Part shown: piece by piece, positions 14,375-40,718 of the stretch
Layout: each line of letters begins with the position of its first letter
How positions within the stretch are numbered: position 1 is the first letter of the stretch
Assembly (NCBI GenBank): GCA_026874595.1
Contig: CM049320.1
Coordinates: 53,719,070 to 53,783,069, forward strand
DNA from: Sipunculus nudus
Lineage: Eukaryota; Annelida; Sipuncula; Golfingiida; Sipunculidae
Length of the DNA: 64,000 bases
Direction of reading: 5' to 3'
Translations under genes and position numbers: made by a program
The notes under the pieces: generated by a model
What the model was told of the DNA's origin: nothing
The model's database searches: none
Seen by the model: only the letters and a program-made list of their open reading frames with translations

Positions 14375-15890
14375 CTTGTTAATTTGACAAACGTGTGTAA
14401 ACAATCATGTACGAATGATGTAATGCTTATGGGATTTTGATTTTGTATTTAGTTTCACAGATTTAAAACTTATTGCCATACCTTGTATGATAATAACATC
14501 ACCGTGACCACATGGGTCTGATAAGGCTTAGAGGTTAAGGAAGGGCATACTGCAGATAGAAAGCTACTTCGTATTAATGTGAATTAATCAAAAATCAACT
14601 TACCTTCAAATGAACCCCTCACCTATGTTATCATCATATTAATACATATGTAGGTCTCTTGCTTTAAGCCTTATGTATCAGTAAAACACAAGAACTAACA
14701 AAATAAATAACATAATAAATAATAATATTTTTTCCAAACAGGTATTTATAACTAAAACAAAATAATATCATAACAAGTTCTTAGTAATTTAACCTAAATA
14801 TTGTTTCAAAATGATCAACTCTTTGTTAAGTTCATTGCACTATACATGTATAGTAAGACCTTGACACGAACTAAAATTGGAATATTAAAAAAATCCTTTT
14901 AAAAACACAATAACAAACATTAAGATTTGAAATTCTGAAAATAAGAGCAGTGTTCAGGATTTTTCCTTGTATTTTTCATGCGGACCAAATAAAAAGACAA
15001 GTCAATAAAAATATTTTACTTTAAATTGACTGCTGAATAAGAAGTTAATTTCAATGGGCTTCGATCAGACTTTTTTTCAGCACATACAACTGTAACACAT
15101 ACATATATTAACACAATAATCTAATTGTCATAAAAGAGGCATGTTATCATTTAAAAAATCACATCAATTTTTATAAATCACAACAGCAAATCTCAACAAC
15201 AACAATGTTTATTTGGAAAAGCATACAAATTTCAATAATAATTATATAAAAATAACAATACTTCTATTAGATAACATCTGGAACCCATATACAATAAAAC
15301 AATGCATATGGCCTAAGGATAAGATTGATAATATATATATATATATATATATATTATAATTAAATATGTCAGATATCTACAGCAGTTTGTTAGTATACAC
15401 AGAACTGAATACGTTCTGTCACGGATTATTAGGCAACGCAAAATTATTAATCGTTTAAGATACTCATTTAATTCATTTCTGTAAGCATTTGTTTAAGAGA
15501 ACCGTTAATGGGCTGTTTAAAATTACTTTTTCCGAATGATACACAAGAAACAATTACGACCAGAAAAAATCCCAGGATACATGTAAGCTAATCCAAATTA
15601 CGATATAATGATGTAAACTATAAACTGTATTTCTTTTTTGATCTTACAAGCCATATTTTTTGTCGCATGTATTATCTTAGTATGCGTTTTTTCAAAATCT
15701 AAAGGAACATGACCTACATGTGACGGACGGAATTAAGGTCCACAGTTTTACAATAGTTCTATGTGTCCTTTCTTCAAGTTTCTCTAATATTTTGTAGCTC
15801 TTCTTCAAATATTTTTTTAAAGGAGCAATGGATAAAACTCTTGATTTCTCAGCTCCCAATGCAAGTAAACTACAATTTTATTTTATATCA
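14375..15890. repeat. Left arm of a large diverged inverted repeat
   Basis: Reverse complements of successive blocks here recur in reverse order at 37,405-40,090. Examples are 14,380-14,520 with about 39,960-40,085 (GTGAAACT, ATCATTCGTACATG), 14,940-15,010 with 39,530-39,680 (TATCCTGAACACTGCTCT against ATCCTGAACACTGCTCTTA), 15,360-15,480 with 38,850-38,980 (ATACTAACAAACTGCTGTA), 15,540-15,600 with 38,720-38,790 (ACATGTATCCTGGGAT) and 15,710-15,880 with 37,410-37,560 (TAGTTTACTTGCATTGGG). A short (TA)n at 15,330-15,353 occupies the same relative place as the one at 38,983. No gene lies in the arm. Confidence 0.8.
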
Positions 15891-16870
15891 GTGACAGGGG
15901 CGCAATTTCCTTTTACAATGTCAGGGGGACGACTGACAATCATGACGTTATATGCAAGTTTTCTTGAAATATAATTTAATGGATGTTAAATTACTGAAGT
16001 ATCTTAAAAGGCCTGTGCAAATATTTTTTTCATTATTTTAGTCATTAACTAAATGAGACATTAAATAAGGGCCACAAAGCAGCTTGCCTTTCCACTGAAG
16101 GCCTATGGGACAATAGGTAAACGGAGCAGATACTCGATCTCAAAGATGCTTAGTATAACTCATATACTGATCTGTTGCAAGAATTCGAAGAATGAAAAGC
16201 TGCATGGTTAAAGATTAACAACTAAATAGTTAATGTAATGATATACGTAAAGTTTAGTTTCTCTGTTTAACAGCCTTTCATCAACTGATATTGCTGATCA
16301 CCACGTGTAACTCTTCATCTTTTAGATTTAACCATCCAGTAACATTCACATATATCAAATACAAATGAGAACTGTCAAGTTAAACGGGTGTCTGTTGAAA
16401 ATTCAATCTGAAGAAAAAAAAACAATGAAAAAAGAAATACATAGTTACTGAATTATAAAAGTTTAAGATTTTACTCAAGCTAAGAATCATGCCGACGTGG
16501 ATGACGGCGTAGCTTTTGTATAAGATCTCAAATGAAATAAAATGGTAGTCTTTTATTCAGACAGTATTTCAAATTATGAAGCTTGCATCCATAATCAGAT
16601 AGTACAATAATTCAAGATTAGGCTTGACAAATATAAATATTCACAGTTATAAATACATTTGAGATGCGATCAGGTCATGAATTTTTTTATCATGAAATCA
16701 AGCAAAAGATAATGATGATTAAAACATATTTGAGGTTTCAAATGTTGAATGCTCGCAAATGTTCCTCGCTACTGTTATCTAGAAGACATGTCTAATCACA
16801 ATAACTGAGAAATTATTCCCCAGATGTCTATTGAGTCAAGACGTCTTTTATGTGATTGGATCATCAGTTG
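15891..16870. other. Non-coding DNA between the left arm and the transposase fragment
   Basis: AT-rich, with no supported exon. It is not matched by the corresponding part of the right side (37,000-37,400), so the two arms differ here. Confidence 0.45.
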
Positions 16871-17928
16871 TCAGTGGAATACACGTAATACACTATTTGT
16901 TTCACTTTTAGAATTTACCAAAAACTTGCATTCGCGTTTACCAATTTCTCCGCTATTTGCTGACAAGACACTTTCCCAAGACCTTTTTTTGTGAACATGA
17001 CAGATCATAACATGGTTTAACCTTCTGTGCGTCATGGTGGAACGCAGCCATGTCTTTAACCTCCTAAGGGCACTGAAAGACCTCTTAGCTGCACGGGAAC
17101 TACTTGGTGATACCAACAGCAGCCTCAGGAGCCTCTCTACTTGCGGGAACATTTTCCTTGTCCCCTTTTCCATGGACTGGAAAATAAGTCTGTGTTCTTC
17201 CAAATTGGCTACCCTGTGGTGCTGTCTGTAAAAATTCAGTTCAAGCTCCAAAGAAGGTTCTAGCTCAGGATACTTCTGGTTGGATAATTTCCTGTATTCC
17301 TCCAGATCTGATGATTCAAAGTAATCGTCAAGGTGTCTTACAGCCACGTCGATTACACTGAAGAACTGGCAACGATACAGTGCTTCCACAGATTCAAACT
17401 CGTGCTGTGGAGCAGTTCCTTGACCATATCTCTTTGGTAGCTTCCTCCTCCTTGGAGCTACTAATGGGTTGAGATCCAAATCAGATATTTTTGTCTTCAG
17501 CCATTCAAAATATACGGCTGAACTTTTTATCTGAACGAAGGTGTTGAAGTTCAGCCTTAACGAGATTTACGGATTGCAGCATGCTTGCCACGTTGACATT
17601 TGTTCCCTGTAAAGCTCTGTTCGATTTCTCCGTGCAATTTAAAACGGGTAATGCAGACAAGAGGCCCAGCATAATCTTGCCTGATGAAAAAAATTGTGAG
17701 CAAACCATTTGCTCTGGAAGCAACATTGCTCCAAAAGGTGGCTGCTGTTTTCTGCAGTGCATCTAGAATATCAGAGTAATTCTTCAAGACAGCATCGACT
17801 GCTGAAATTCTGGTCAACCAAAGAGTTTGGCATATAAGGTTTGAGATAGGCGGGGAACTGTCGGTTTTCGGTAGCGGCCTGTAGTAAAGCTTATGGGACT
17901 TTTCGATTTTTCGCAGGCAGTTTCTCAT
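16871..17928 (-). pseudogene. C-terminal fragment of a hAT-family transposase, frameshifted
   Basis: The 202-codon frame at 17,479-16,871 ends with a typical hAT dimerisation region: after a Pro-Ser-Ser-Ser-Arg segment comes AAKRSFSALRRLKTWLRSTM and then RLNHVMICHVH. Upstream fragments in other frames continue the same protein. A segment with SAVDAVLKNYSDILDALQ is frame 1; NRALQGTNVNVASMLQSVNL is frame 2; YFEWLKTKISDLDLNPLVAP leads into a basic RRRKLPKRYG motif seen before the dimerisation region in many hAT proteins. At least two frameshifts, near 17,660 and 17,525, are needed. The N-terminal zinc finger and most of the catalytic core are missing, because the coding homology stops at the poly-G and satellite border near 17,930. 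It resembles transposases often labelled as P52rIPK-like or ZMYM1-like. It is not functional as it stands. Confidence 0.85.
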
Positions 17929-17935
17929 TAGTGCC

Positions 17936-17950
17936 GGGGGGGGGGGGGGG
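17936..17950. repeat. Poly-G tract at the transposase/satellite border
   Basis: Fifteen consecutive G residues separate the transposase remnant from the first diverged SatA unit. Homopolymers of this kind are prone to sequencing and assembly error. Confidence 0.9.
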
Positions 17951-17974
17951 TTGCTGGAAGCTTTGGCAGCCTGT

Positions 17975-20900
17975 AGTACCCTACAAAAAATTGGGAGGGG
18001 ATAAAATTTATCGCATTAATGTTAAGGTTGCCGGCAGGGGGAGTGAAATGAGAGCGGCCAGCCACTGGGGCCCCATGAATCGCACACGCAAATAGCAGCT
18101 ATTTGCGACCCAAAAAATTTAGGAGGGGGTAAAATTTCTGGTAGCATCGCATTGAGAGTTAAGATTGCCGCCAGGGGGAGTGGACATGATTGCGGGCAGA
18201 CAGAGGGGCCCCCATGAATCGCACGCGCAAATAGCAGCTATTTGCTACCCTAAAAAATTGAGGAAGGGGTAAAATTTCTGGTAGCATCGCATTGAGAGTT
18301 AAGATTGCCGCCAGAGGGAGTGGACAAGAGACAGGACTGCCACAGAGGCCCTATGAATCGCACGCGCAAATAGCAGCTATTTGCTACCCTAAAAATTAGG
18401 AGGAAGTAAAATAATAGTAGCAGCGCATGGAGTGTTAAGACTGCCACCAGGGGGAGTGGAGATCTCAAAGCCTGCCACAGCGGCCCAATGAATTGCACGC
18501 GCAAATAGCAGCTATTTGCTACCATAAAAGTTGTGAAGACTGCCGCCAGGGGGAGAGGAGATCTCAGCGGCCTGGCAGAGGGGTCCCCACGAGTCGCACG
18601 CGCAAATAGCAGCTATTTGCTACCACAAAATATGTCAAGACTGCCACCAGGGGATGTGGACATGAGAGTGGACAGACAGAGGGGCCCACATGAGTCGCAA
18701 GCGCAAATAGCAGCTATTTGCTACCATAAAAAGTGTCAAGACTGCCGCCAGGAGGGGTGGACACAGAGCGGGCGGCCAGAGGAGGCCCCATTAATCGAAA
18801 GCGCAAATAGCAGCTATTTGCTACCATAAAAAGTGTCAAGACTGCCGCCAGGAGGGGTGGACACAGAGCGGGCGGCCAGAGGAGGCCCCATTAATCGAAA
18901 GCGCAAATAGCAGCTATTTGCTACCGTAAACAGTGTCAAGACTGCCGCCAGGAGGGGTGGGCACAGAGCGGGCGGCCAGAGGAGGCCCCATGAATCGCAA
19001 GCGCAAATAGCAGCTATTTGCTACCTTAAAAGTTGCCAAGACTGCCGCCAGGGGGAGTTGATATGAGAGCGGCCAGCGAAGAGGCCCCATGAATCGCAAG
19101 CGCAAATAGCAGCTATTTGCTACCTTAAAAGTTGCCAAGACTGCCGCCAGGGGGAGTGGATATGACAGCGGCCAGAGGGGGCCCCATGAATCACACGCGC
19201 AAATAGCAGCTATTTGCTACCTTAACAGTTGCCAAGACTGCCGCCAGGGGGAGTGGAAATGAGAACAGCCTGACAGAGAGGCCCCCATGAGTCACAAGCG
19301 CAAATAGCAGCTATTTGTTACCATAAAAACTGTCAAGACTGCCGCCAGGAGGAGTGGACACAGAGCGGGCGGCCAGAGGAGGCCCCATGAATCGCAAGCG
19401 CAAATAGCAGCTATTTGCTACCTTAAAAGTTGCCAAGACTGCCGCCAGGGGGAGTAGATATGACAGCGGCCAGAGGGGGCCCCATGAGTCGCACGCGCAA
19501 ATAGCAGCTATTTGCTACCTTAAAAGGTGCCAAGACTGCCGCCAGGGGGAATGGATATGAGAGCGGCCAGACAGAGAGGCCCCCATGAGTCGCAAGCGCA
19601 AATAGCAGCTATTTGCTACCTTAAAAGTTGCCAAGACTGCCGCCAGGGGGAGTGGATATGACAGCGGCCAGACAGAGAGGCCCCCATGAGTCGCAAGCGC
19701 AAATAGCAGCTATTTGCTACCTTAAAAGTTGTCAAGACTGCAGCCAGTGGGAGTGGACACAGAGGGGGTTGCCAGAGGGGGCCCCACGAATCGCACGCGC
19801 AAATAGCAGCTATTTGCTACCTTAAAAGTTGTCAAGACTGCCGCCAGGAGGTTGATATGAGAGCGGCCAGCGAAGAGGCCCCCATGAATCGCAAGCGCAA
19901 ATAGCAGCTATTTGCTACCTTAAAAGTTGCCAAGACTGCCGCCAGGGGGAGTGGACAGAGAGCGGGCTGCCAGAGGGGCCCCCATGAATCGCAAGCGCAA
20001 ATAGCAGCTATTTGCTACCTTAAAAGTTGCCAAGACTGCCGCCAGGGGGAGTGGATATGACAGCGGCCAGACAGAGAGGCCCCTATGAGTCGCAAGCGCA
20101 AATAGCAGCTATTTGCTACCTTAAAAGTTGTCAAGACTGCAGCCAGTGGGAGTGGACACAGAGGGGGTTGCCAGAGGGGGCCCCACGAATCGCACGCGCA
20201 AATATCAGCTATTTGCTACCTTAAAAGTTGTCAAGACTGCCGCCAGGAGGTTGATATGAGAGCGGCCAGCGAAGAGGCCCCCATGAATCGCAAGCGCAAA
20301 TAGCAGCTATTTGCTACCTTAAAAGTTGCCAAGACTGCCGCCAGGGTGAGGTGATATGAGAGCGGCCAGCGAAGAGGCCCCCATGAATCGCAAGCGCAAA
20401 TAGCAGCTATTTGCTACCTTAAAAGTTGCCAAGACTGCCGCCAGGGGGAGTGGATATGACAGCGGCCAGAGGGGGCCCCATGAATCGCACGCGCAAATAG
20501 CAGCTATTTGCTACCTTAACAGTTGCCAAGACTGCCGCCAGGGGAAGTGGAATTGAGAACAGCCTGACAGAGAGGCCCCCATGAGTCGCAAGCGCAAATA
20601 GCAGCTATTTGCTACCATAAAAAATGTCAAGACTGCCGCCAGGAGGGTGGACACAGAGCGGGCAGCCAGAGGAGGCCCCATGAATCGCAAGCGCAAAATA
20701 GCAGCTATTTGCTACCTTAAAAGGTGCCAAGACTGCCGCCAGGGGGAGTGGATATGAGAGCGGCCAGACAGAGAGGCCCCCATGAGTCGCAAGCGCAAAT
20801 AGCAGCTATTTGCTACCTTTAAAGTTGTCAAGACTGCCGCCAGGGGGAGTGGACACAGAGGGGGTTGCCAGAGGGGGCCCCACGAATCGCACGCGCAAAT

Positions 20901-23900
20901 AGCAGCTATTTGCTACCTTAACAGTTGCCAAGACTGCCGCCAGGGGGAGTGGAAATGAGAACAGCCTGACAGAGAGGCCCCCATGAATCGCAAGCGCAAA
21001 TAACAGCTATTTGCTACCTTAAAAGTTGCCAAGACTGCCGCCAGGGGGAGTGGACAGAGAGCGGGCTGCCAGAGGGGCCCCCATGAATCGCAAGCGCAAA
21101 TAGCAGCTATTTGCTACCTTAAAAGTTGCCAAGACTGCCGCCAGGGGAAGTGGATATGACAGCGGCCAGACAGAGAGGCCCCTATGAGTCGCAAGCGCAA
21201 ATAGCAGCTATTTGCTACCTTAAAAGTTGTCAAGACTGCAGCCAGTGGGAGTGGACACAGAGGGGGTTGCCAGAGGGGGCCCAACGAATCGCACGCGCAA
21301 ATATCAGCTATTTGCTACCTTAAAAGTTGTCAAGACTGCCGCCAGGAGGTTGATATGAGAGCGGCCAGCGAAGAGGCCCCCATGAATCGCAAGCGCAAAT
21401 AGCAGCTATTTGCTACCTTAAAAGTTGCCAAGACTGCCGCCAGGGGGAGTTGATATGAGAGCGGCCAGCGAAGGGGCCCTCATGAATCGCAAGCGCAAAT
21501 AGCAGCTATTTGCTACCTTAAAAGTTGTCAAGACTGCCGCCAGGAGGTTGATATGAGAGCGGCCAGCGAAGAGGCCCCCATGAATCGCAAGCGCAAATAG
21601 CAGCTATTTGCTACCTTAAAAGTTGCCAAGACTGCCGCCAGGGGGAGTGGACAGAGAGCGGGCTGCCAGAGGGGCCCCCATGAATCGCAAGCGCAAATAG
21701 CAGCTATTTGCTACCTTAAAAGTTGCCAAGACTGCCGCCAGGGGGAGTGGATATGACAGCGGCCAGACAGAGAGGCCCCTATGAGTCGCAAGCGCAAATA
21801 GCAGCTATTTGCTACCTTAAAAGTTGTCAAGACTGCAGCCAGTGGGAGTGGACACAGAGGGGGTTGCCAGAGGGGGCCCCACGAATCGCACGCGCAAATA
21901 TCAGCTATTTGCTACCTTAAAAGTTGCCAAGACTGCCGCCAGGGGAAGTGGAATTGAGAACAGCCTGACAGAGAGGCCCCCATGAGTCGCAAGCGCAAAT
22001 AGCAGCTATTTGCTACCATAAAAAATGTCAAGACTGCCGCCAGGAGGGGTGGACACAGAGCGGGCAGCCAGAGGAGGCCCCATGAATCGCAAGCGCAAAA
22101 TAGCAGCTATTTGCTACCTTAAAAGGTGCCAAGACTGCCGCCAGGGGGACTGGATATGAGAGCGGCCAGACAGAGAGGCCCCCATGAGTCGCAAGCGCAA
22201 ATAGCAGCTATTTGCTACCTTTAAAGTTGTCAAGACTGCCGCCAGGGGGAGTGGACACAGAGGGGGTTGCCAGAGGGGGCCCCACGAATCGCACGCGCAA
22301 ATAGCAGCTATTTGCTACCTTAACAGTTGTCAAGACTGCCGCCAGGAGGTTGATATGAGAGCGGCCAGCGAAGAGGCCCCCATGAATCGCAAGCGCAAAT
22401 AGTAGCTATTTGCTACCTTAAAAGTTGCCAAGACTGCCGCCAGGGGGAGTTGATATGAGAGCGGCCAGCGAAGAGGCCCCATGAATCGCAAGCGCAAATA
22501 GCAGCTATTTGCTACCTTAAAAGTTGCCAAGACTGCCGCCAGGGGGAGTGGATATGACAGCGGCCAGAGGGGGCCCCATGAATCGCACGCGCAAATAGCA
22601 GCTATTTGCTACCTTAACAGTTGCCAAGACTGCCGCCAGGGGGAGTGGAAATGAGAACAGCCTGACAGAGAGGCCCCCATGAGTCACAAGCGCAAATAGC
22701 AGCTATTTGCTACCATAAAAAGTGTCAGGACTGCCGCCAGGCGGAGTGGACACAGAGCGGGCGGCCAGAGGAGGCCCAATGAATCGCAAGCGCAAATAGC
22801 AGCTATTTGCTACCTTAAAAGTTGCCAAGACTGCCGCCAGGGGGAGTAGATATGACAGCGGCCAGAGGGGGCCCCATGAATCGCACGCGCAAATAGCAGC
22901 TATTTGCTACCTTAAAAGGTGCCAAGACTGCCGCCAGGGGGAATGGATATGAGAGCGGCCAGACAGAGAGGCCCCCATGAGTCGCAAGCGCAAATAGCAG
23001 CTATTTGCTACCTTAAAAGGTGCCAAGACTGCCGCCAGGGGGAGTGGACAAAGAGCAGGCTGCCAGAGGGGCCCCCATGAATCGCAAGCGCAAATAGCAG
23101 CTATTTGCTACCTTAAAAGTTGCCAAGACTGCCGCCAGGGGGAGTGGATATGACAGCGGCCAGACAGAGAGGCCCCCATGAGTCGCAAGCGCAAATAGCA
23201 GCTATTTGCTACCTTAAAAGTTGTCAAGACTGCAGCCAGTGGGAGTGGACACAGAGGGGGTTGCCAGAGGGGGCCCCACGAATCGCACGCGCAAATAGCA
23301 GCTATTTGCTACCTTAAAAGTTGTCAAGACTGCCGCCAGGAGGTTGATATGAGAGCGGCCAGCGAAGAGGCCCCCATGAATCGCAAGCGCAAATAGCAGC
23401 TATTTGCTACCTTAAAAGTTGCCAAGACTGCCGCCAGGGGGAGTGGACAAAGAGGGGGCTGCCAGAGGGGCCCCCATGAATCGCAAAATAAAATAGCAGC
23501 TATTTGCTACCTTAAAAGTTGCCAAGACTGCCGCCAGGGGGAGTGGACAGAGCCGGCTGCCAGAGGGGCCCCCATGAATCGCAAGCGCAAATAGCAGCTA
23601 TTAGCTACCTTAAAAGTTGCCAAGACTGCCGCCAGGGGGAGTGGATATGACAGCGGCCAGACAGAGAGGCCCCCATGAGTCGCAAGCGCAAATAGCAGCT
23701 ATTTGCTACCTTAAAAGTTGTCAAGACTGCAGCCAGTGGGAGTGGACACAGAGGGGGTTGCCAGAGGGGGCCCCACGAATCGCACGCGCAAATAGCAGCT
23801 ATTTGCTACCTTAAAAGTTGTCAAGACTGCCGCCAGGAGATTGATATGAGAGCGGCCAGCGAAGAGGCCCCCATGAATCGCAAGCGCAAATAGCAGCTAT

Positions 23901-26660
23901 TTGCTACCTTAAAAGTTGCCAAGACTGCCGCCAGGGGGAGTGGACAGAGAGCGGGCTGCCAGAGGGGCCCCCATGAATCGCAAGCGCAAATAGCAGCTAT
24001 TTGCTACCTTAAAAGTTGCCAAGACTGCCGCCAGGGGGAGTGGATATGACAGCGGCCAGACAGAGAGGCCCCCATGAGTCGCAAGCGCAAATAGCAGCTA
24101 TTTGCTACCTTAAAAGTTGTCAAGACTGCAGCCAGTGGGAGTTGACACAGAGGGGGTTGCCAGAGGGGGCCCCACGAATCGCACGCGCAAATAGCAGCTA
24201 TTTGCTACCTTAAAAGTTGTCAAGACTGCCGCCAGGAGGTTGATATGAGAGCGGCCAGCGAAGAGGCCCCCATGAATCGCAACTGCAAATAGCAGCTATT
24301 TGCTACCTTAAAAGTTGCCAAGACTGCCGCCAGGGGGAGTGGATATGACAGCGGCCAGAGGGGGCCCCATGAATCGCACGCGCAAATAGCAGCTATTTGC
24401 TACCTTAACAGTTGCCAAGACTGCCGCCAGGGGAAGTGGAATTGAGAACAGCCTGACAGAGAGGCCCCCATGAGTCGCAAGCGCAAATAGCAGCTATTTG
24501 CTACCATAAAAAGTGTCAAGACTGCCGCCAGGAGGGGTGGACACAGAGCGGGCGGCCAGAGGAGGCCCCATGAATCGCAAGCGCAAAATAGCAGCTATTT
24601 GCTACCTTAAAAGGTGCCAAGACTGCCGCCAGGGGGAGTGGATATGAGAGCGGCCAGACAGAGAGGCCCCCATGAGTCGCAAGCGCAAATAGCAGCTATT
24701 TGCTACCTTAAAAGTTGTCAAGACTGCCGCCAGGGGGAGTGGACAAAGAGCGGGCTGCCAGAGGGGCCCCCGTGAATCGCACGCGCAAATAGCAGCTATT
24801 TGCTACCTTAAAAGTTGCCAAGACTGCCGCAAGGGGGAGTGGATATGAGAGCGGCCAGCGAAGAGGCCCCCATGAATCGCAAGCGCAAATAGCAGCTATT
24901 TGCTACCTTAAAAGTTGCCAAGACTGCCGCCAGGGGGAGTGGAAATGACAGCGGCCAGACAGAGAGGCCCCCATGAGTCGCAAGCGCAAATAGCAGCTGT
25001 TTGCTACCTTAAAAGTTGTCAAGACTGCAGCCAGTGGGAGTGGACACAGAGGGGGTTGCCAGAGGGGGCCCCACGAATCGCACGCGCAAATAGCAGCTAT
25101 TTGCTACCTTAACAGTTGCCAAGACTGCCGCCAGGGGGAGTGGACAGAGAGCGGCCAGACAGAGAGGCCCCCATGAGTCGCAAGCGCAAATAGCAGCTAT
25201 TTGCTTCCTTACAAGTTGTCAAGACTGCCGCCAGGGGGAGTGGACAGAGCCGGCTGCCAGAGGGGCCCCCATGAATCGCACGCGCAAATAGAAGCTATTT
25301 GCTACCTTAAAAGTTGTCAAGACTGCCGCCAGGAGGTTGATATGAGAGCGGCCAGCGAAGAGGCCCCCATGAATCGCAAGCGCAAATAGCAGCTATTTGC
25401 TACCTTAAAAGTTGCCAAGACTGCCGCCAGGGGGAGTTGATATGAGAGCGGCCAGCGAAGAGGCCCCATGAATCGCAAGCGCAAATAGCAGCCATTTGCT
25501 ACCTTAAAAGTTGTCAAGACTGCCGCCAGGAGGTTGATATGAGAGCGGCCAGCGAAGAGGCCCCCATGAATCGCAAGCGCAAATAGCAGCTATTTGCTAC
25601 CTTAAAAGTTGCCAAGACTGCCGCCAGGGGGAGTTGATATGAGAGCGGCCAGCGAAGAGGCCCCATGAATCGCAAGCGCAAATAGCAGCCATTTGCTACC
25701 TTAAAAGTTGCCAAGACTGCCGCCAGGGGGAGTGGATATGACAGCGGCCAGAGGGGGCCCCATAAATCGCACGCGCAAATAGCAGCTATTTGCTACCTTA
25801 ACAGTTGCCAAGACTGCCGCCAGGGGGAGTGGAAATGAGAACAGCCTGACAGAGAGGCCCCCATGAGTCACAAGCGCAAATAGCAGCTATTTGCTACCAT
25901 AAAAAGTGTCAAGACTGCCGCCAGGAGGAGTGGACACAGAGCGGGCGGCCAGAGGAGGCCCCATGAATCGCAAGCGCAAATAGCAGCTATTTGCTACCTT
26001 AAAAGGTGCCAAGACTGCCGCCAGGGGGAGTGGATATGAGAGCGGCCAGACAGAGAGGCCCCCATGAGTCGCAAGCGCAAATAGCAGCTATTTGCTACCT
26101 TAAAAGTTGTCAAGTCTGCCGCCAGGGGGATTGGACAAAGAGCGGGCTGCCAGAGGGGCCCCCATGAATCGCACGCGCAAATAGCAGCTATTTGCTACCT
26201 TAAAAGTTGCCAAGACTGCCGCCAGGGGGAGTGGATATGACCGCGGCCAGACAGAGAGGCCCGCATGAGTCGCAAGCGCAAATAGCAGCTATTTGATACC
26301 TTAAAAGTTGCCAAGACTGCCGCCAGGTGGAGTGGACAGAGAGCGGGCTGCCAGAGGGGGCCCCATGAATCGCACGCGCAAATAGCAGCTATTTGCTACC
26401 TTAACAGTTGCCAAGACTGCCGCCAGGGGGAGTGGAAATGAGAACAGCCTGACAGAGAGGCCCCCATGAGTCACAAGCGCAAATAGCAGCTATTTGCTAC
26501 CATAAAAAGTGTCAAGACTGCCGCCAGGAGGAGTGGACACAGAGCGGGCGGCCAGAGGAGGCCCCATGAATCGCAAGCGCAAATAGCAGCTATTTGCTAC
26601 CTTAAAAGTTGCTAAGACTGCCGCCAGGGGGAGTAGATATGACAGCGGCCAGACAGAGAA
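17975..26660. repeat. SatA: ~100-bp satellite array with a 19-bp palindromic core
   Basis: Roughly 85 head-to-tail units run almost without interruption. Each unit carries GCAAATAGCAGCTATTTGC, an odd-length perfect palindrome (9-bp stem around a central A), then TACC, a short A-rich segment, and a GC-rich part with AAGACTGCCGCCAGGGGGAG and variants of GCGGCCAGACAGAGAGGCCC. Core units are 97-102 bp. The first units at the left edge are longer (139, 139 and 135 bp between palindromes), with an extra segment containing GGTAGCATCGCATTGAGAG. Multi-unit blocks recur nearly unchanged, for example the two-unit block starting at 19,628, 20,027, 21,723, 23,120, 23,617 and 24,016, which is higher-order structure. 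Recurring 65-codon open frames arise from this periodicity and are not genes. The right edge is abrupt at about 26,660. Confidence 0.97.
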
Positions 26661-28959: not shown

Positions 28960-29112
28960 AAGTATGTAAATGCGAGTGCAAATACTTTGAAATTGTATTC
29001 CTGAATGCTGTCGTGAATAAATTTTATAATAGAATTTTAAAAATCAGTTATTTCATGTATATTATAAACCGAAATATTTTCGGATGTTATTGTTAAAATT
29101 TAACATATATAA

Positions 29113-32100
29113 AATCAAGTAAGTGTTTGTCAGTTTTAATATATGCTATATCCGGTATATGGGTTACCCTAACCCTTCGGGCATGACATACTCCAGTAAG
29201 TGTTTGTGACTATTAATATATGCTATATCCGGGATACGGGTTACCCTAACCCTTCAGGCTTGAAATGCTCCAGTAAGTGTTTGTCATTATTGATACGTGC
29301 TATACCCGGGATACGGGTTTTATGCTATATCGGGGATACGGGTTACCCTCTAAGTGTTTGTCACTATCAATATATGCTATATCCGGGATAGGGGTTACCC
29401 TAACCCTTCGGGCATGAAATACTCCAGTAAGTTTTTGTCACTATTGATATATGCTATTTGCCGGGTTACGGGTTACCCAAACCCTTTGGGAATAAACTAC
29501 TCTTGTAAGTGTTTGTCATTATTAATATATGCTGTATCCGGGATGCGGGTTACCCTAACCCCTCGGGCATGAAATACTCCAGTAAGTGTGTGTCACTATT
29601 AATATATGCTATATCCGGGATACGGGTTACGCCAACCCTTCGGGCATGAAATACTCAAGTAAGTGTTTGTCAGTATTAATATAGGCTATATCCGGTATAC
29701 GGGTTACCCTAACCCTTCGGACATGAAATACTCCAGTGAGTGTTTGTCACTATTATGTATGCTATATCAGGGATACGGGTAACCCTGACCCTTCGGGCAT
29801 GAAATCCTCCTGTAAGTATTTGTCACTATTAATATACGCTATATCCAGGATACGGGTTAACGTAACCCATCGGTGTGAAATGCTCCAGTAAGTGTGTGTG
29901 ACTATTCATATATGCTATATGCAGTAAACGAGTCTACGTTACCCAGCGGGTATGTAATACTCCAGTTAGTGTTGGTGACTATTCATATATGCTATATCCG
30001 TGACACAGGTTACCGTAACCCACGCGGCGTGAAAAGCTCGAATGTTTATCGCTATTAATATATGCTGTATCCAGGATAAGGTTTACCCTAACCCCTCGGG
30101 CATGAAATACTCCTGTAAGTATTTGTCACTATTAATATACGCTATATGCAGTAAACGGGTCTACGTTACCCAGCGGGTATGAAATACTCCAGTTAGTGTT
30201 TGTGACTATTCATATATGCTATATCCGTGACACAGGTTACCGTAACCCACGCGGCGGGAAAAGCTCGAATGTTTGTCGCTATTAATATATGCTATATCCG
30301 GGATACGGGTTACACTAAATCTCGGGCAAGAAATACTCCTGTAAGTGTTTGTCACTATTAATATATGCTATATCCAGGATACGGGTTACCCTAACCCTTC
30401 GGGCATGAAATACTCCTGTAAGTGTTTGTCACTATCAATATATGCTATATCCGGGATAGGGGTTACCCTAACCCTTCGGGCATGAAATACTCCAGTAAGT
30501 GTTTGTCACTATAGATATATGCTATATCCGGGTTACGGGTTACCCAAACCCTTTGGGAATAAAATACTCTTGTAAGTGTTTGTCATTATTAATATATGCT
30601 GTATCCGGGATGCGGGTTACCCTTACCCTTCGGGGATGAAATACTCCAGTAAGTGTGTGTCACTATTAATATTTGCTATATCCAGGATACAGGTTACCCA
30701 AACCCTTCGGGCATGAAATACTCCAGTAATTGTTTGTCATTATTGATACGTGCTATACCCGGGATACGGGTTTTATGCTATATCGGGGATACGGGTTACC
30801 CTAACGCTTCGGGCATGAATTACCCCAGTAGATGTTTGCCGTTATTAATATGTGCTATATCCGGGATACGGGTTACCCTAACCCTTCGGGCATGAAATAA
30901 TCCTATAAGTTGTTGTCCCTACTGATATATGCTGTATCCGGGATGCGGGTTACCCTAAACCTTTGGGCATGAAATACTCCTGTAAGTGTGTGTCACTATT
31001 AATATATGCTATATCCAGGATACGGGTTACCCTAAACCCTTCGAGCATGAAATACTCCCGTAAGTGTTTGTCACTATCAATATATGCTATATCCGGGATA
31101 GGGGTTACCCTAACCCTTCGGGCATGAAATACTACAGTAAGTGTTTGTCACTATTGATATATGCTATATCCGGGATACGGGTTACCCAAACCCTTCGGGC
31201 ATGAAATACTCCAGTAAGTGTTTGTCACTATTGATATATGCTATATCCGGGTTACGGGTTACCCAAACCCTTTGGGAATAAAATACTCTTGTAAGTGTTT
31301 GTCATTATTAATATATGCTGTATCCGGGATGCGGGTTACCCTTACCCTTCGGGCATGAAATACTCCGGTAAGTGTGTGTCACTATTAATATATGCTATAT
31401 CCAGGATACGGGTTACCCTAACCCTTCGGGCATGAAATACTCCAGTAATTGTTTGTCATTATTGATACGTGCTATACCCGGGATACGGGTTTTATGCTAT
31501 ATCGGGGATACGGGTTACCCTAACGCTTCGGGCATGAATTACCCCAGTAGATGTTTGCCATTATTAATATGTGCTATATCCAGGATACGGGTTACCCTAA
31601 CCCTTCGGGTATGAAATAATACAGTAAGTTGTTGTCCCTATTGATTTTTGCTATATCCGGGATACGGGTTACCCTAACCCTTCGGGCATGAAATAATCCA
31701 GTAAGTTGTTTTCCCTACTGATATATGCTGTATCCGGGATGCGGGTTACCCTAACCCTTTGGGCATGAAATACTCCTGTAAGTGTGTGTCACTATTAATA
31801 TATGCTATATCCAGGATACGGGTTACCCTAAACCCTTCGAGCATGAAATACTCCCGTAAGTGTTTGTCACTATCAATATATGCTCTATCCGGGATAGGGG
31901 TTACCCTAACCCTTCGGGCATGAAATACTACAGTAAGTGTTTGTCACTATTGATATATGCTATATCCGGGATACGGGTTACCCAAACCCTTCGGGAATAA
32001 TATACTCCTGTAAGTGTTTGTTATATTAATATATGCTATATCCGGGATACGGGTTACCTTAACCCTCCGGGCATGAAATACTCCAGTAAATGTGTGTCAT

Positions 32101-33504
32101 TATTAATACGTGCTATATCCGGGATACGGGTCACCCTAACCCTTCGGGCATGAAATACTCCAGTAATTGTTTGTCATTATTGATACGTGCTATACCCGGG
32201 ATACGGGTTACCCTCATCCTTCGGGCATGAAATAATCAAGTAATTTTTTGTCCCTATTGATTTATACTATATCGGGGATACGGGTTTCCCTAACCCTTCG
32301 GCATGAAATAATCCAGTAAATTGTTGTCCCTATTGATATATGCTATATCCAGGATACGGGTTACCCTAACCCTTCAGGCATGAAATACTCCCGTAAGGTT
32401 TTGTCACTATAAATATATGTTATGTCCGGGATACGGGTTACCCTAACCCTTCCGGCTTGAAATACTCCTGTGTGTGTCACTATTAATATATGCTATATCC
32501 AGGATACGGGTTACCCTAACCCTTCAGGCATGAAATACTCCCGTAAGGTTTTGTCACTATAAATATATGTTATGTCCGGTGATAGGGGTTACCCTAACCC
32601 TTCCGGCATGAAATACTCCAGTAAGTGTTTGTCACTATAGATATATGCTATATCCGGTATACCGGTTACCCAAACCCTTCGGGAATAAAATACTCCAACA
32701 AGTGTTTGTAACTATTCATATATGCTATATCCGGGATACGGGTTTCCTTAACCCTTCGGGCATGATATACTCCAGTAGATGTTTGTCATTATTAATATGT
32801 GCTATATCCGGGTTACGGGTTACGCAAACCCTTTGGGAATAAAATACTCTTGTAAGTGTTTGTCATTATTAATATATGCTGTATCCGGGATGCGGGTTAC
32901 CCTAACCCTTCGGGCATGAAATACTCCAGTAAGTGTGTGTCACTATTAATATATGCTATATCCGGGATACGGGTTACCCTAACCCTTCGGGCATGAAATA
33001 CTCCAGTAATTGTTTGTCATTATTGATACGTGCTATACCCGGGATACGGGTTTTATGCTATATCGGGGATACGGGTTACCCTAACGCTTCGGGCATGAAT
33101 TACCCCAGTAGATGTTTGCCATTATTAATATGTGCTATATCCGGGATACGGGTTACCCTAACCCTTCGGGCATCAAATACTCCAGTAAGTGTTTGTCACT
33201 ATTAATATATGCTATGTCCAGGAGTGGGTTGCCCTAACCCTTCGGGCATGAAGTACTCCAGTAATTGTTTGTCATTATTAATATGTGCTATATCCGGGAT
33301 ACAGGTTACCCTAAACCTTCGGGCATGAAATACTCCAGTAAGTGTTAGTGACCATTCATAGATGTTATATCCGGGATACGGGTTACCCTAACCCTTTGGG
33401 CATGAATTATTCCACTTAGTGTTTGTCACTGTTAATATATGCTGTATCGGGGGTACAAGTCCCTAACCCTTCTGGCATGAAACACCCCAGTAAGTCTGTG
33501 TCAC
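29113..33504. repeat. SatB array, block 1: ~77-bp satellite with telomere-like motif
   Basis: Tandem units of about 72-77 bp have the order TATATGCTATATCCGGGATA, then CGGGTTACCCTAACCC, then TTCGGGCATGAAATACTCC, then AGTAAGTGTTTGTCACTATT. The GGGTTA...TAACCC portion is a hairpin-capable inverted repeat around CCC. Variant units recur in blocks: the run starting at 30,653 reappears at 31,372 (719 bp later) and at 32,933, each including a shortened unit with the junction GGGTTTTATGCTATATCGGG. Small open frames in the array are periodicity artefacts. Confidence 0.96.
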
Positions 33505-34199
33505 GCGCTGTGGCAAGCTATGCAACGGTGACAGAACAATTGACAAAACCAAGTTAAATTTGTTTACAGATTTAACTTCCGTTATGTAGTGCCTTGATCA
33601 TATTTTAACCGTTTTTGTTATTGGCTTAACATTACGCCACTCGTGACCAATGATCACCGTGTAATAAATTGTTCCCCCACTACTGGTTTGTCTTATTTTG
33701 TGATACTTGCTAGAAAGAATCGTTCTAATATGCCTTTATATGGCGTGATCTCGAGCACGCTTCAAAAGAGCCCCCCCCCCCCCCCCCCCCCCCAACAACT
33801 GAACCGTCAGTCGGCACTGCATTTTCACTGGGACCGTATGACTGCAGTTTATCTCGAGGCCTTCTGAACATAAAACACAAATATGGGTTACCTGAACAAG
33901 ATAAAGAGGTCACTTTGGTGAAATACCAGTGAGCAGAAATGCAGGTATTACAGATTTACCTATTGTTACCTGTATTAACCTAACTTACATACATATGAGA
34001 AGGTATGCAGAAAAAACATATAATTGACATAAAGGAAATATACCTTACAGTAAATGCAGAAAATGTCACAAAGATACCTTGAAAGGGACTGAGTTAATGT
34101 GTCTTATATGGATTCATGTCAAAATGTGGGAAAAAAATGCAAAATTAATCTGAACAGTAGGAGTGTCACAAGCCGCCAGCCTAATCTGAACAATAAAGG
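33505..34199. other. Interruption between SatB blocks, beginning with SatC-like sequence
   Basis: At 33,505 SatB stops mid-unit and GCGCTGTGGCAAGCTATGC follows, closely matching GCGCGATGTGGCAAGCTATG in SatC near 36,794. The rest is unique AT-rich DNA with a 23-C homopolymer at 33,771-33,793. No gene is seen. Confidence 0.7.
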
Positions 34200-35631
34200 G
34201 TTAATATATGCTATATTCAGGATACGGGTGGCCCTACCCTTCGACCATGAAATACTCATGTAAATGTTTTTCACTATTGATATATGCTATATCCGGGATA
34301 CGGGTTACCCAAACCCTTCGGGCATGAAATACTCCTGTAAGTGTTTGTCACTATCAATAGATGATATATCCGGGATACGTGTTACCCTAACCCTTCGGGC
34401 ATGAAATACTCCAGTAAGTGTTTGTCACAATTGATATATGCTATATCCGGGATACGGGTTACCCTAACCCTTCGGGCATGAGATAATCAAGTAATTTTTT
34501 GTCCCTATTGATATATGCTATATCGGGGATACGGGGTACCCTAACGCTCCGGGCATTAGATACCCCAGTAGATGTTTGTCATTATTAATATGTGCTATAT
34601 CCGGGATACGGGTAACCCTAACCCTTCGGGCATGAAGTACCCCAGTAATTGTTTGCCATTATTAATATGTGCTATACCCTAACCCTTCGAGCATGAAATA
34701 CTCCAGTAAGTGTTTGTGACTATTCATATATGCTATATCCGGGATACGGGTTACCCTAACCCTTAGGGCATGAAATACTCCAGAAAGTGTTTGTGACTAT
34801 TCATATATGCAATATCCGGAATACGGGTTACCCTAACCCTTCGAGCATGAAATACTCCAGTAAGTTTTTGTGACTATTCATATATGCTATATCCGGGATA
34901 CGGGTTACCCTAACCCTTCAGGCATGAAATACTCCAGTAAGTGTTTGTGACTATTCATATATGCTATATCCGGGATACGGGCTACCCTAACCCTCGGGCA
35001 TGAAATAATCCAGTAAATTGTTGTCCATATTGATATAAGCTGTATCCGGGATGCGGGTTACCTGAACCCTTCGGGCATGAAAAACTCCTGTAAGTGTGTG
35101 TCACTGTTAATATATACTATATCCAGGATAGGGGTTAGCCTAACCTTTCGGGCATGAAATACTCCCGTAAGTGTTTGTCACTATCAATATATGCTATATC
35201 CGGGAAATGTTTGTCATTATTAATATATGCTATATCATGGGTACGGGTTACCTGAACCCTTCGGGCATGAAATACTCCAGTAAGTGTTTGTCACTATTAA
35301 TATATGCTATGTCCAGTATACGGGTTACCCTAACCCTTCGGGCATGAAGTACTCCAGTAATTGTTAGTCATTATTAAAATGTGCTATATCCGGGATACGG
35401 GTTACCCTAAACCTTCGGGCATGAAAAACTCCAGTAAGTGTTAGTGACTATTCATATATGTCATATCCGGGATACGGGTTACCCTAACCCTTTGGGCATG
35501 AATTACTCCACTAAGTGTTTGTCACTGTTAATATATGCTGTATCGGGGGTACAAGTCCCTAACCCTTCTGGCATGAAACACCCCAGTAAGTCTGTGTCAC
35601 TAATAATATGTGCTTTATCCGGGATACGGGG
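34200..35631. repeat. SatB array, block 2
   Basis: Same unit and orientation as block 1. Its last ~300 bp (about 35,285-35,600) is nearly the same, unit for unit, as the last ~300 bp of block 1 (33,190-33,504), including the odd TATCGGGGGTACAAGTCCC unit. Block 2 continues into TAATAATATGTGC and one more partial unit where block 1 is cut. Confidence 0.95.
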
Positions 35632-35835
35632 CATTATAAACAGTCATAATATTACGACTCGTTGACATTACATAGCTTAATATATGGTGTGTACTCAGTA
35701 TATTATTATACAATCCTTTCAACTTAAATAAATTTCCTACACACATGCTTCTATACAATGTTTGAGCGGGCATCTTGTTAAATGAAGAATAAATTACGCC
35801 ATATACATATGAACGGTTAGTAGAGTTTTCGGTGA

Positions 35836-36960
35836 AATGCGCACTGCGATCGCAGCTTAATATGACCAAAGGCATTTGCTACCGCGCATATCTGTTTGCT
35901 ACTTTGCGACTATTAATTGCTACCGCGCATATTGCTTTGAGTGTTCCTGTCCGAGCGACCTCTGGCAGCAAAGACTTGCACTACGTCAACAGTAGCAGAT
36001 TTTGCGATCGCAAATTCTTAGTCCCCATTGCGGTCGCAGTGGGTTGCGACCGCGCAGGTCTTTTTGCTACCGCGCACATTGCGCATTGCGATCGCAGCTT
36101 AATATGACCAAAGGCATTTGCCACCGCGCATATCTGTTTGCTACTTTGCGACTGTTAATTGCTACCGCGCATATTGCTTTGAGTGTTCCTGTCCGAGCGA
36201 CCTCTGGCAGCAAAGACTTGCACTACGTTTTGCTATCGCGCACATTGCGCATTGCGCTCGCAGCTTAATATGACCAAAGGCATTTGCTACCGCGCATATC
36301 TGTTTGCTACTTTGCGACTATTAATTGCTACCGCGCATATTGCTTTGAGTGTTCCTGTCCGAGCGACATCTGCCAGCAAAGACTTGCACTACGTCAACAG
36401 TAGCAGATTTTGCGATCGCAAATTCATAGTCCCCCTGGATAGCAAGGGACAGTAACTTGCGACCGCGCAGGTCTTTTTGCTACCGCGCACATTGCGCATT
36501 GCGATCGCAGCTTAATATGACAAAAGGCATTTGCTACCGGGCATATCTGTTTGCTACTTTGCGACTGTTAATTGCTACCGTGCATATTGCTTTGAGTGGT
36601 CCTGTCCGAACGACCTCTGGCAGCAAAGACTTGCACTACGTCAACAGTCGCAGATTTTGCGATCGCAAATTCATAGTTCCCATTGGTAGCAATGACAGCC
36701 ACTTGCTACCGCGCAGGTCTGATTTGCTACCGCGCACTTTGCGCTACGAGCCGGTCTGTGCCTGATGGTAGCAAGTCCGGTGGCTGTTCAGTGCGCGATG
36801 TGGCAAGCTATGCACAAGAGTAGCAAATGCTACCGTGCGACTGCCATTTGCTACCGCGCACTTTGCGCTGAATAGCCGCTGAGAGCAGAATGGTAGCAAA
36901 GTGAGTGGAAGCTGAGTGCGCGTTGTGCCGGGCTATGCGCAATGGTAGCAAAGAATCCCA
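35836..36960. repeat. SatC: CpG-rich, GCGATCGC-bearing repeat array
   Basis: Four copies of a unit starting near CAGCTTAATATGACCAAAGG (about 35,852; 36,094; 36,262; 36,508) are spaced 242, 168 and 246 bp, the short one lacking an internal segment. Units contain repeated TTTGCTACCGCGCA motifs and several GCGATCGC octamers. From about 36,725 the motif also appears inverted (GGTAGCAAA beside TTTGCTACC). TTTGCTACC is shared with SatA units. The CpG density contrasts with the AT-rich surroundings. Open frames of 90-100 codons here follow the repeat and are not credible genes. Confidence 0.92.
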
Positions 36961-36973
36961 GGGATAAGTCTGG

Positions 36974-36992
36974 AAAACCGACAGTTCCCCGC
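36974..36992. repeat. 19-bp inverted match to the hAT transposase remnant
   Basis: AAAACCGACAGTTCCCCGC here is the exact reverse complement of 17,850-17,868, inside the transposase fragment on the other side of the satellites. It lies at the inner edge of the right-hand region, where the remainder of the transposase would be expected if the arms were once complete. Confidence 0.7.
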
Positions 36993-37404
36993 ATATATGC
37001 TTGGCTGTCACGAGGTCACGCTTGTATCATGTTTCCTCAACAACTGGGGAGAATCTCAGAGCTCAAACATTTTTTTATGGTTCTGCGGGGTACTTTTGAG
37101 CCCCATAGCTCGGAGTAATGATATCGGTAATGGAGACGTAATTTCAGGTTTCCAAGGAAATTGTTAATAGACCTCTAAGACTGCACAATATTCATCATCC
37201 TAGCCCTTGCATTTACGATTAATACACTGCTATTGGACGACCCGACGGAAGGTGGCAGACAATAACCCATCGCTAAGCTCAGCATGACTGAAAGTCAGCT
37301 GAGCTAAAAGACGATAAACTGACGGCAAGACCATCTATCAATTCTTATCAAAAGAGACAAGAAAACCTGTTTTATCAATAATTCTTCATCAAAGAGACAA
37401 AAAA

Positions 37405-38981
37405 TGTAGTTTACTTGCATTGGGTCTGATAAAGCAAGAGTTTATCCATTGTTTTAAGTCTTGCAAAATATTAGAGAAACTTGAGGAAAGGACATATGGA
37501 AGCATGGTTACTCAGCAGTTTGGACCTTAATTCTTTCAGTCACATGTAGGTCATATTCCTGGAAATTTGAAAATAGCATACAATAAAATACATGTGACGG
37601 AATATCTTGCATGTCGATAAATAATGACATATAAGAGTTGATGTCTGAAACGAACATGAGCACGAAAAGAAACGCTTTGATGAGAGTTCTTCAAAATGAG
37701 CCATAGCAGATCGACCTTGCAAATATGGATTTCTTTCTAGTTTCAAAATTAACCTGTAACAATGTGATTGTACATACACCGATTTCCCTAGATCAAACTT
37801 TTGAGTCAGGCGTATGTTTCTGCTTTTTATTCTGATACCAAGCAATATTTATGAATGCTCTACCTGTGTCTGAAATAGGAAATATCGAATGGGGAAGATT
37901 AATATGACAAAAAAATCGGTTGGTTCTGATGTAATATCATGGATTATCCATTTTGTAAGGGAGTTGAAGAGATCTAATTTTTCCTTGAGAATTGCTTGAG
38001 AAATGCAACACCAAACACGTGTAAATCTATGGTTTGTTATAGAATGAATGTGACGTTTGTCATGGGAAATTTAAACAAGCTTAATCTGAATTATGGAATG
38101 AACTTTGAAATTGTGAAATAAACTGTATTATTTCTTAAACCAGTTCCTACAAACTCTACTAAACAAAGTATATGACAGGAATATCGATGTCTTCACAAGC
38201 CTACCTTGCCTTTCCCAAATATAAACTCTGCTTTTAATAGCAAGCGTCATAAAATTCCTAATCTGATGTAACAGCATGGGCTCCTGTTTGCCCAGCTTTA
38301 TTTTGCCTACCCAAATAAACATTGGACAGAGTATTAACAGTACGAGTTGTTTGAATACTTCACAGGAGAGCTACTCAAACAAAGTGTAAGGGTGGTTTAT
38401 GTCACGGCTCAGATATAAACATAGTCACAAAGTATTTCCTTGTAGCGGTGTCTACTTGATTAATCATAGGGGTTGGTAAGTAATTATCTTGCAGGTTGTT
38501 CATTTACATGTGTAAGAAATAAGTTCGGGTCTTGTAAAACACTCGCAAAATTTATAAGGTGTATCTGTTGGAGATGTGTTATTGACAATAATATAATTAA
38601 TGTTTCAAAGCATTGGAAGTTTTGACTTTAAAAGAATACTGTGCATTCATACCCTAACCACATTGTCCTGCCCTTATTTTTTTCTTAATACCAATATAGT
38701 CTTAATCATTTTATGGTAATTTGGATAACCTTACATGTATCCTGGGATTATTTTCTGGTCTTAATTGTTTCTTGTGTTTCATTTGGCAAAAGATTTATTC
38801 AAACATCCTATCAACGGTCATCAAAAACAAATGCTTATGGAAATAAATTAAAATGAGTATCTTAAGAGATTGAGGTTTCCGCGGATTGCCTTATAAGCCA
38901 TGACAGAACCTATTCATTTATGTAAATACTAACAAACTGCTGTATAGATCTGACATAATTAATTATGATATATATATTATT

Positions 38982-39017
<36 letters not shown>

Positions 39018-40090
39018 GCGAAGGTAAAGATAAAGAGTGACGCCTTTTAGACAGACTGACTAGTTTATTAATGAAGCCGTCACTCTTTATCTTTGCATCA
39101 ACTAGAGACTAACATGGCCATACCACATATATAATTATTATATACACACACACATATATATATATATATATATTTAAATATATATATATATATATTTAAA
39201 TATATATATATATATTTCAAATTTTACCCTCTTGCCGTATTCATTGATTATTCATATGGTTACCGGATGTAATCTAATAGGTGTTTTGCTCCTTTTTGTA
39301 TTATTATTGATATGTGTATACAATTTCGAAAAATATTTTAAGTTTTTTTGTGGGGATTTATAAAAAAATGCTATGATTTTTTAAAATGAAATGGAGCCTG
39401 TTTTTAGATGATTAAATAATGTATGAATAACGTGTTACAGTTGTATGTGCCGAAAAACATGTTCGATCGGAGAGCATTGCAAATGGCTTGCTATCCAGTA
39501 GTCAATTTAAATTAGAATAATTTTATTCCGCCCTTCATATGCTCTTTTATTTGGTCCTCATAGAAAAATATTGATATATTGCTCTACTGATATTGACTTG
39601 AATATCAGAGAATATCCTGAACACTGCTCTCATCATGAGAATTTCAAATCTTAACGTCTGTTATTGTCTTTTACAACTAGCATTTGTTTTAAGTTAAGGG
39701 CTTAATATACATGAACAGTGCAATGAAATATTTAGGTTATATCATGATTAATCGGTGATAATTTTATTTTGTTTTAGGTAAAAATTCCTATTTGTATATA
39801 ATTATCAATGATTCTAGTATTTATTTGGTTACTGCTTATGTTCAACTGACACTTAGGGCTTAAAGCATTTGATGGTAGTTGTATTTCTGATGAATTCTCA
39901 TTAATATGTGGTAGCTTTTTATCTGCGGTATTTCCTTTCATAACCTCTTAGCCACATCAGATCCATCGGGTCAGGGTTATGTTTTTGTCACACGAGGTAG
40001 GGTTACAAGTATTAAACCTGTGAAACTGATACCAAATCAAAATTCCATTAAGCTCATTATCATTCGTACATGGGTAGAACAAGTGTGCAT
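37405..40090. repeat. Right arm of the large inverted repeat
   Basis: This is the counterpart, in reverse complement, of 14,375-15,890. It is longer than the left arm mainly because about 1.1 kb (roughly 37,600-38,690) has no match on the left. A foldback element and TA tracts (38,983-39,017 and 39,141-39,215) also sit inside. No gene is supported; the 101- and 64-codon frames within the unmatched segment look random. Confidence 0.78.
39018..39119 (-). mobile_element. Short TA-flanked hairpin element
   Basis: A 17-bp stem, AAAGATAAAGAGTGACG at 39,026-39,042, is perfectly complementary in inverted order to 39,078-39,094, with a 35-base spacer. TA tracts lie on both sides. Read on the minus strand it starts GGCCATGTTAGTCTCT, similar to TAGCCGTGTTAGTCTT at 63,581, so it belongs to a repeat family with another member in this window. 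Confidence 0.6.

Positions 40091-40665: not shown

Positions 40666-40670
<5 letters not shown>

Positions 40671-40714
<44 letters not shown>
40671..40714. repeat. (TA)n microsatellite
   Basis: About 22 TA units abutting the foldback element at 40,715. Confidence 0.97.

Positions 40715-40718
<4 letters not shown>

Follow-up and report, generated by a model that had tools for sequence, protein, structure and literature searches.

A satellite-bearing DNA transposon, probably young, between older inverted duplicates in Sipunculus nudus

Introduction

Satellite-carrying transposons are known, and the consulted parts of reviews describe carriage by transposons as one route of satellite spread, mostly for short arrays in Helitrons or miniature inverted-repeat transposable elements (MITEs). 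In bivalves, Helitron/Helentron elements (Cg170/HindIII, pearl/CvA) contain central satellite arrays that are dispersed by the element, with differing array types within one element (parts of PMC12628747; PMC8268682; PMC5139131). Here, we analyzed a 64,000-bp stretch of the Sipunculus nudus genome (the window; C15:53719070-53783069, in an assembly of 1.43 Gb and 153 contigs), in which three satellite arrays, SatA, SatB, and SatC, lie between two inverted arms and very probably belong to one DNA transposon. Like the bivalve elements, this element has satellite-like arrays inside its ends and appears to be their means of dispersal; unlike them, it has terminal inverted repeats and, at some copies, 8-bp target-site duplications; its three arrays are fixed, and its ends lie 8-41 kb apart. 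Oyster Helitron arrays are also shorter: Cg170 averages about six monomers, and the maxima are 9 to 48 for most satellites (part of PMC8268682), whereas the window holds about 85 SatA monomers and at least 62 SatB monomers.

Other described elements share part of this organization. The internal tandem repeats of Tetris, a foldback element of Drosophila virilis, can expand into satellite-like arrays (part of PMC4079207), and Galileo, of the P superfamily, carries tandem repeats, mediates inversions, and reaches 9021 bp in its longest D. willistoni copy (part of PMC4168063). The Sipunculus element resembles both in being a DNA transposon with expandable internal tandem repeats. However, the repeats of Tetris and Galileo lie in long inverted repeats at both ends, whereas here the inverted repeats measure 27 bp and the arrays are not mirrored; SatA is on one side and the unrelated SatB and SatC are on the other, which separates the element from the foldback group (Tetris, FB, and Galileo). 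The Xenopus MITEs Xstir and miDNA4 combine terminal inverted repeats with a variable internal array of one repeat type at MITE size (parts of PMC12628747; PMC9659126). The Sipunculus element shares the terminal repeats and the variable interior, and is presumably also non-autonomous, but it has three repeat types and spans tens of kilobases.

In the literature searched, mostly at the level of titles and opening lines and with most subscription papers and all preprints outside it, no description was found of an element 8-41 kb long that is not of the foldback type and combines short inverted repeats with three unrelated arrays. What is new here is not the carriage of satellites but the fixed set of three unrelated arrays, together with the size and the ends of the element. 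The case bears on the old question of how long satellite arrays reach scattered sites: near-identical copies on many contigs carry satellites with fixed edges, as expected if long tandem repeats spread as transposon cargo.

Results

The satellites lie within a repeated unit with sharp ends

Four genome queries defined the unit: the right end (36800-37150), the left end (17700-18000), the middle segment between SatA and SatB (26660-28340), and the SatB-SatC junction (35560-35860). For each genome query, only about 40 of the best candidates were scored, and identities at the other loci were mostly 97-100%. The right-end query matched 39 other loci at 98-100% identity (best 40 of 703), and the matches stopped at query position 200 in 18 loci, 201 in 11, 202-206 in eight, and 208 and 214 in one each. 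The break thus fell at query 200-206, or window 36999-37005, in 37 of the 39 loci, placing the end of the element at 36999 or within a base of it. The left-end query likewise matched 39 other loci (94-99% identity; best 40 of 217), with matches starting at query 143-146 (window 17842-17845) in 36 of them and at 123, 140, and 141 in the others, which places this end at 17843.

The two ends are inverted repeats of each other. One reads GAGATAGGCGGGGAACTGTCGGTTTTC and the other, on the opposite strand, CATATATGCGGGGAACTGTCGGTTTTC, with 24 of 27 bases identical. Self-BLAST recovered them as a 24-bp inverted match (17846-17869/36996-36973) that was absent from the first-pass annotation of this stretch. 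A second hAT remnant was considered for this mirrored piece and rejected, since the breaks at many loci show that it is the element end. Terminal inverted repeats at shared, sharp ends agree with a class II DNA transposon.

The interior recurs with the ends. The middle query matched 39 other loci (best 40 of 5417), 31 at full length (30 at 98-99% identity and one at 96%) and eight partially, and the SatB-SatC junction matched 39 other loci at 99-100% (best 40 of 588). A 20-bp core of the terminal repeat has 191 exact copies in the genome (89 and 102 by strand), and the same core read backwards, as a control, has none. Among the first 100 cores listed, 21 neighboring pairs face each other within 41 kb, none face away, and six neighbors point in the same direction within 60 kb. 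Same-direction clusters, unlike the facing pairs elsewhere, were seen at C8:30782900-30794951 (six cores) and C10:22690470-22691797 (two cores); these are perhaps tandem or one-ended copies. The facing pairs span 2.3-40.6 kb, far from the hundreds of base pairs of a MITE.

In the window, the internal order is left end, SatA, middle segment, SatB, SatC, and right end, and 20 other copies, paired by hand, agree with it in the order and orientation of the landmarks. The first-pass annotation had offered, as one option, a hotspot at which satellites were captured. Three independent captures might be suggested by three satellites side by side with almost no mutual similarity; however, each junction query finds these junctions again at 39 other loci, spread over many contigs, and the 20 other copies share one landmark order, so that a hotspot is hardly credible.

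The copies differ in length. Across 21 copies, window included, the distance between landmarks ranged from 8.0 to 40.6 kb (median 19.2 kb) and was different in every copy. The SatA side measured 2.5-18.6 kb and the SatB/SatC side 4.6-25.1 kb, and the two were weakly correlated (Spearman 0.37, p 0.10). With such differences, the copies form a natural series in which the growth of arrays from one jump to the next could be measured.

Target-site duplications and coding capacity

Target-site duplications were compared in 14 copies, including the window copy, drawn from those with hand-paired ends. Three copies have exact 8-bp duplications, TCCTCGAC, AAGTAAGC, and GGTACATC, which directly abut the ends defined by 17843 and 36999, and one further copy matches at seven of eight bases. 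When left and right flanks were wrongly paired, none of 180 pairings reached 7/8 and two reached 6/8. The family thus has target-site duplications, of which the window copy shows none.

Duplications of 8 bp occur in hAT, P, and other superfamilies, and the hAT end consensus is YARNG. The element is hAT-like in its 8-bp duplication and unlike hAT in its ends, 5'-GAGAT and 5'-CATAT, which depart from that consensus. The only hAT sequence seen was an old remnant in the flank, outside the element; no search of all hAT genes was made.

The coding capacity of the window copy is small. Its middle segment has no ATG-initiated open reading frame (ORF) of at least 80 amino acids and one stop-to-stop frame of 107 amino acids (27302-27622); ATG-initiated ORFs of at least 80 amino acids occur only in the satellites and at the left end. 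Pfam scans of 26601-29200 in six frames and of one SatC frame gave no match.

A probable young transposon carrying satellites as cargo

We consider it very likely that a young DNA transposon of high copy number carries the satellites inside it as cargo, that its terminal inverted repeats measure 27 bp and its target-site duplications 8 bp, and that it is located between pre-existing arms. Under this explanation, a transposase encoded elsewhere would recognize the terminal repeats and move the non-autonomous element in trans by cut-and-paste, and unequal exchange or slippage would lengthen and shorten the arrays from one jump to the next. The window copy would have landed between two older, oppositely oriented duplicates, the arms, beside a decayed hAT element, through an abnormal insertion or with a later rearrangement.

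Several points weigh against this explanation. Scoring was confined to the best candidates, which inflates the identities and may have passed over older copies. At the right end, 21 of the 39 matches extend past query 200, above the quarter expected by chance; the terminal base might be misplaced by one position, or there could be a target preference. No target-site duplication is seen at nine of the 14 copies, including the window copy, and one more matches at 6/8 only, a chance-level match that was not counted because wrong pairings also reach 6/8. Two of these nine, both on contig C17, share identical flanks, so the 14 copies amount to 13 independent sites. Neither a transposase nor an autonomous partner was found in the scans of the window-copy middle and the one SatC frame or in one sampled short pair, a facing pair of 6.3 kb in which three 300-base samples held SatA and SatB only. 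To our knowledge, the terminal repeats fit no superfamily consensus. The copy lengths are distances between hand-paired landmarks, and the core position served to place a few of the ends. Only small parts of the interiors of the other copies were read, and further insertions may be present there; array lengths are those of the assembly.

The two C17 copies (C17:54338891-54356530 and C17:54369432-54381191) lie 13 kb apart, have the same 16-base flanks on both sides, and measure 17.6 and 11.8 kb. They are probably a local duplication in which the satellites have since diverged in length.

Helitrons are not known to make target-site duplications, and they end in 5'-TC and CTRR-3'. An oyster-like Helitron/Helentron whose center holds satellite arrays is thus at odds with the 8-bp duplications (three of 14 exact and one at 7/8) and with the ends observed here, and we regard it as very unlikely, even though the element has inverted repeats at or near both ends and nine of the 14 tested copies are without a target duplication. 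The comparison arises from oysters, where Helitrons commonly house satellites (parts of PMC8268682; PMC5139131).

The inverted arms are old local duplicates

The first-pass annotation had described inverted arms at 14.4-15.9 and 37.4-40.1 kb with the three satellites between them, and both statements held up, the former in self-BLAST and the latter with Tandem Repeats Finder. Self-alignment showed three inverted collinear blocks: 14406-15367/40072-39178 (66% gapped identity, E 1e-81), 15331-15622/38992-38695 (82.6%, E 3e-77), and 15628-15879/37631-37400 (72.8%, E 1e-30).

In the genome, the left-arm query found three full copies, all on contig C15 within about 61 kb (9/9 candidates scored): the left arm itself (copy C2), the right arm (part of copy C3), and a third copy (C1) at window coordinates -21131 to -18668, where negative values are positions left of the window on C15. 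The remaining left-arm matches were short pieces on the same contig. The right-arm query returned the same three copies, and its many further matches were confined to an insert at 38968-39215 (best 40 of 1817). An interspersed repeat family was rejected for the arms, as these searches found three local copies and the other matches belong to this AT-rich insert. Within a 264-kb neighborhood, C1 and C3 match in direct orientation, collinear in four blocks from -21457/37070 to -15920/43662; the C1 segment lies 58 kb upstream of the right arm, and the match continues for 3.6 kb past the arm on its outer side. In the main arm blocks, ungapped sites show 74-79% identity among the three copies (Kimura distance 0.25-0.32).

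These results (three local copies, C1 direct relative to C3, and homology past the arm end) indicate that the arms stem from an old local duplication in which C2 is inverted. The arms are two of three old local duplicates and not the ends of a mobile element, and they are much older than the spread of the element, because the arm copies are 74-79% identical in comparison with the near-identical element copies. Tblastx matches of the arms fall on both strands (first 25 rows). Pfam scanning of the arms in six read-through frames gave no domain in the arms, the sole hit being the hAT domain beside the left arm, and a coding origin was rejected for want of such a hit.

If the arms were the long terminal inverted repeats of a composite or foldback element of 25.7 kb with the satellites inside it, all three arrays would be bracketed by collinear inverted arms, as is observed. 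However, the genome search that the first-pass annotation had suggested found only three arm copies, all local on C15 (9/9 left-arm candidates and the best 40 of 1817 right-arm candidates scored), compared with 39 other loci per query for the satellite element, and those loci must therefore be without arms. Moreover, C1 is direct relative to the right arm with homology running 3.6 kb past its end, and the exact terminal core occurs in the 264-kb neighborhood only at 17852 and 36990 and not near C1. This reading is accordingly highly improbable. Of the earlier proposals, a giant element enclosing the three satellites does exist, but it ends at 17843 and 36999 and the arms are not its termini; the proposal that satellites later filled an inverted duplication has the time order right, but the filling was one transposon and not separate satellite captures. 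A striking palindrome around satellites can thus stem from a young element amid old duplicates.

Further old tandem segmental duplicates, about 9 kb long and about 74-85% identical, were noted at window -57090 to -38815. A second inverted pair (10297-11583/-33906 to -32584) is 1.4 kb long, 74% identical, and not collinear with the arms.

The flanks of the window copy

The two 8-base flanks of the window copy match at three of eight positions. On the left, the minus strand encodes a hAT C-terminal dimerization domain at 16874-17566 (Pfam PF05699, E 2e-5). The query covering this remnant had 14 other matches at 68-92% identity (15/15 candidates scored); of the eight longest, seven start at query position 8 and one at 13, so that hAT homology ends at 17835, seven bases short of the element. 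The hAT remnant reported earlier between the arms is thus present, but as an older repeat outside the element. On the right, the flank turns C1-like at 37070, 70 bases outside the element. A repeat at about 37.2-37.3 kb may be akin to one in bivalves.

The absence of an 8-bp duplication at these flanks implies that the insertion of the window copy was abnormal or that a rearrangement followed. One possibility, compatible with the transposon explanation though we lean against it, is that the copy sits at a rearrangement breakpoint, where ectopic recombination or hybrid-end transposition joined unrelated flanks and perhaps helped invert C2 relative to C3. The 3/8 flank match, the 7 bp between hAT homology and the element, the 70 bases before C1-like sequence, and the nine of 14 copies without target duplication would fit such a history. 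Against it, no partner end carrying a missing 8-base flank was found for either side (13 end plus eight flank bases, at most one mismatch), in a search that would miss partners with a more altered end. Furthermore, the arm divergence of 0.25-0.32 substitutions per site is far above that among element copies; the duplication is therefore older, and only a later inversion could be attributed to the element. Table 1 lists the features of the locus.

Table 1. Positions of the element, its parts, and its surroundings in the window
Feature	Position	Strand	Basis or remark
Left arm, copy C2 of the old local duplicate	14406..15879	+	self-BLAST, genome query
Old hAT transposase remnant, outside the element on the left	16871..17835	-	PF05699, E 2e-5
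Gap between hAT homology and element	17836..17842	.	7 bp; the left 8 bp do not recur at the right
Whole element, very probably a 19,157-bp DNA transposon with SatA, SatB, and SatC	17843..36999	+ (label arbitrary)	shared breaks, landmark order
Left terminal inverted repeat	17843..17869	+	24/27 match to the right one
SatA array, about 100-bp monomers, 139-bp units at left edge	18001..26659	+	Tandem Repeats Finder, anchor spacings
Middle segment, 34% GC	26660..29117	+	genome query 26660-28340
SatB array, 77-bp monomers	29118..35640	+	Tandem Repeats Finder, anchors
SatB/SatC spacer	35641..35835	+	junction query 35560-35860
SatC array, 165/247/413-bp repeats	35836..36955	+	Tandem Repeats Finder, anchors
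Right terminal inverted repeat	36973..36999	-	27 bp
C3 homology to C1, full extent	37070..43662	+	same orientation as C1, collinear in four blocks
Right arm, part of copy C3	37400..40072	-	self-BLAST, genome query
AT-rich dispersed repeat inserted in the right arm	38968..39215	.	matches on many contigs

Satellite arrays and their possible role

SatA has a period of 100/201 bp (Tandem Repeats Finder). Its 85 anchors are nearly palindromic, with 69 matches on the minus strand too; the array nevertheless has a single orientation, as TTTGCTACC occurs 80 times on the plus strand and never on the minus strand. The SatB anchors are likewise all on the plus strand (62 plus, 0 minus). SatA monomers within the window have a mean identity of 86-89% at 11 tested distances, and at each top-scored locus the best match to the right edge of SatA has 98-100% identity. 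The three satellites are mutually unrelated beyond one 21-bp match between SatB and SatC.

On many contigs, a query with the last 161 bases of SatA had almost identical matches (39 scored out of 885 candidates). Among 11 other SatA loci that were fetched, three continue into the middle segment for at least 1.5 kb at 98.5-98.9% identity and eight are without a flank match; among 30 other loci, hand-compared in the matches listed, 29 are next to or close to a listed middle segment, and the remaining one is close to a listed left end. Because the query ends at the SatA/middle junction, these counts favor element loci, and standalone SatA arrays may exist.

Other features of the interior were noted. 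ATTTGCTACC is common to the otherwise unrelated SatA (79 copies) and SatC (five copies) on the same strand. SatA monomers hold CCGCCAGGGGGAG; a plus-strand scan of the window that allowed one mismatch located it at 61 places, every one of them in SatA. This motif resembles the CTCF core, and the array would then be a putative one-orientation series of dozens of sites. The middle segment includes a possible MITE at 28360-28959, with inverted TGGAAGTGGT at both ends as read from the sequence.

The arrays could also be working parts of the element. Repeated motifs (for example ATTTGCTACC, or the GC-rich SatA core) would bind the transposase or a host chromatin protein, selection for transposition would keep the three arrays together and enlarge them, and missing target duplications would result from transposition between the ends of different copies. 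We think this unlikely; if true, it would make the family a dedicated satellite-dispersing element that also rearranges chromosomes.

Other features of the region

Searches for RNA families and tRNAs found none, and viral contigs searched with one arm and two satellite patterns gave 0 matches. Three ORFs on the minus strand, at 842-1384, 1388-1759, and -91156 to -90197, encode 181, 124, and 320 amino acids. They have no Pfam match above the curated cut-off and, by eye, look apolipoprotein-L-like.

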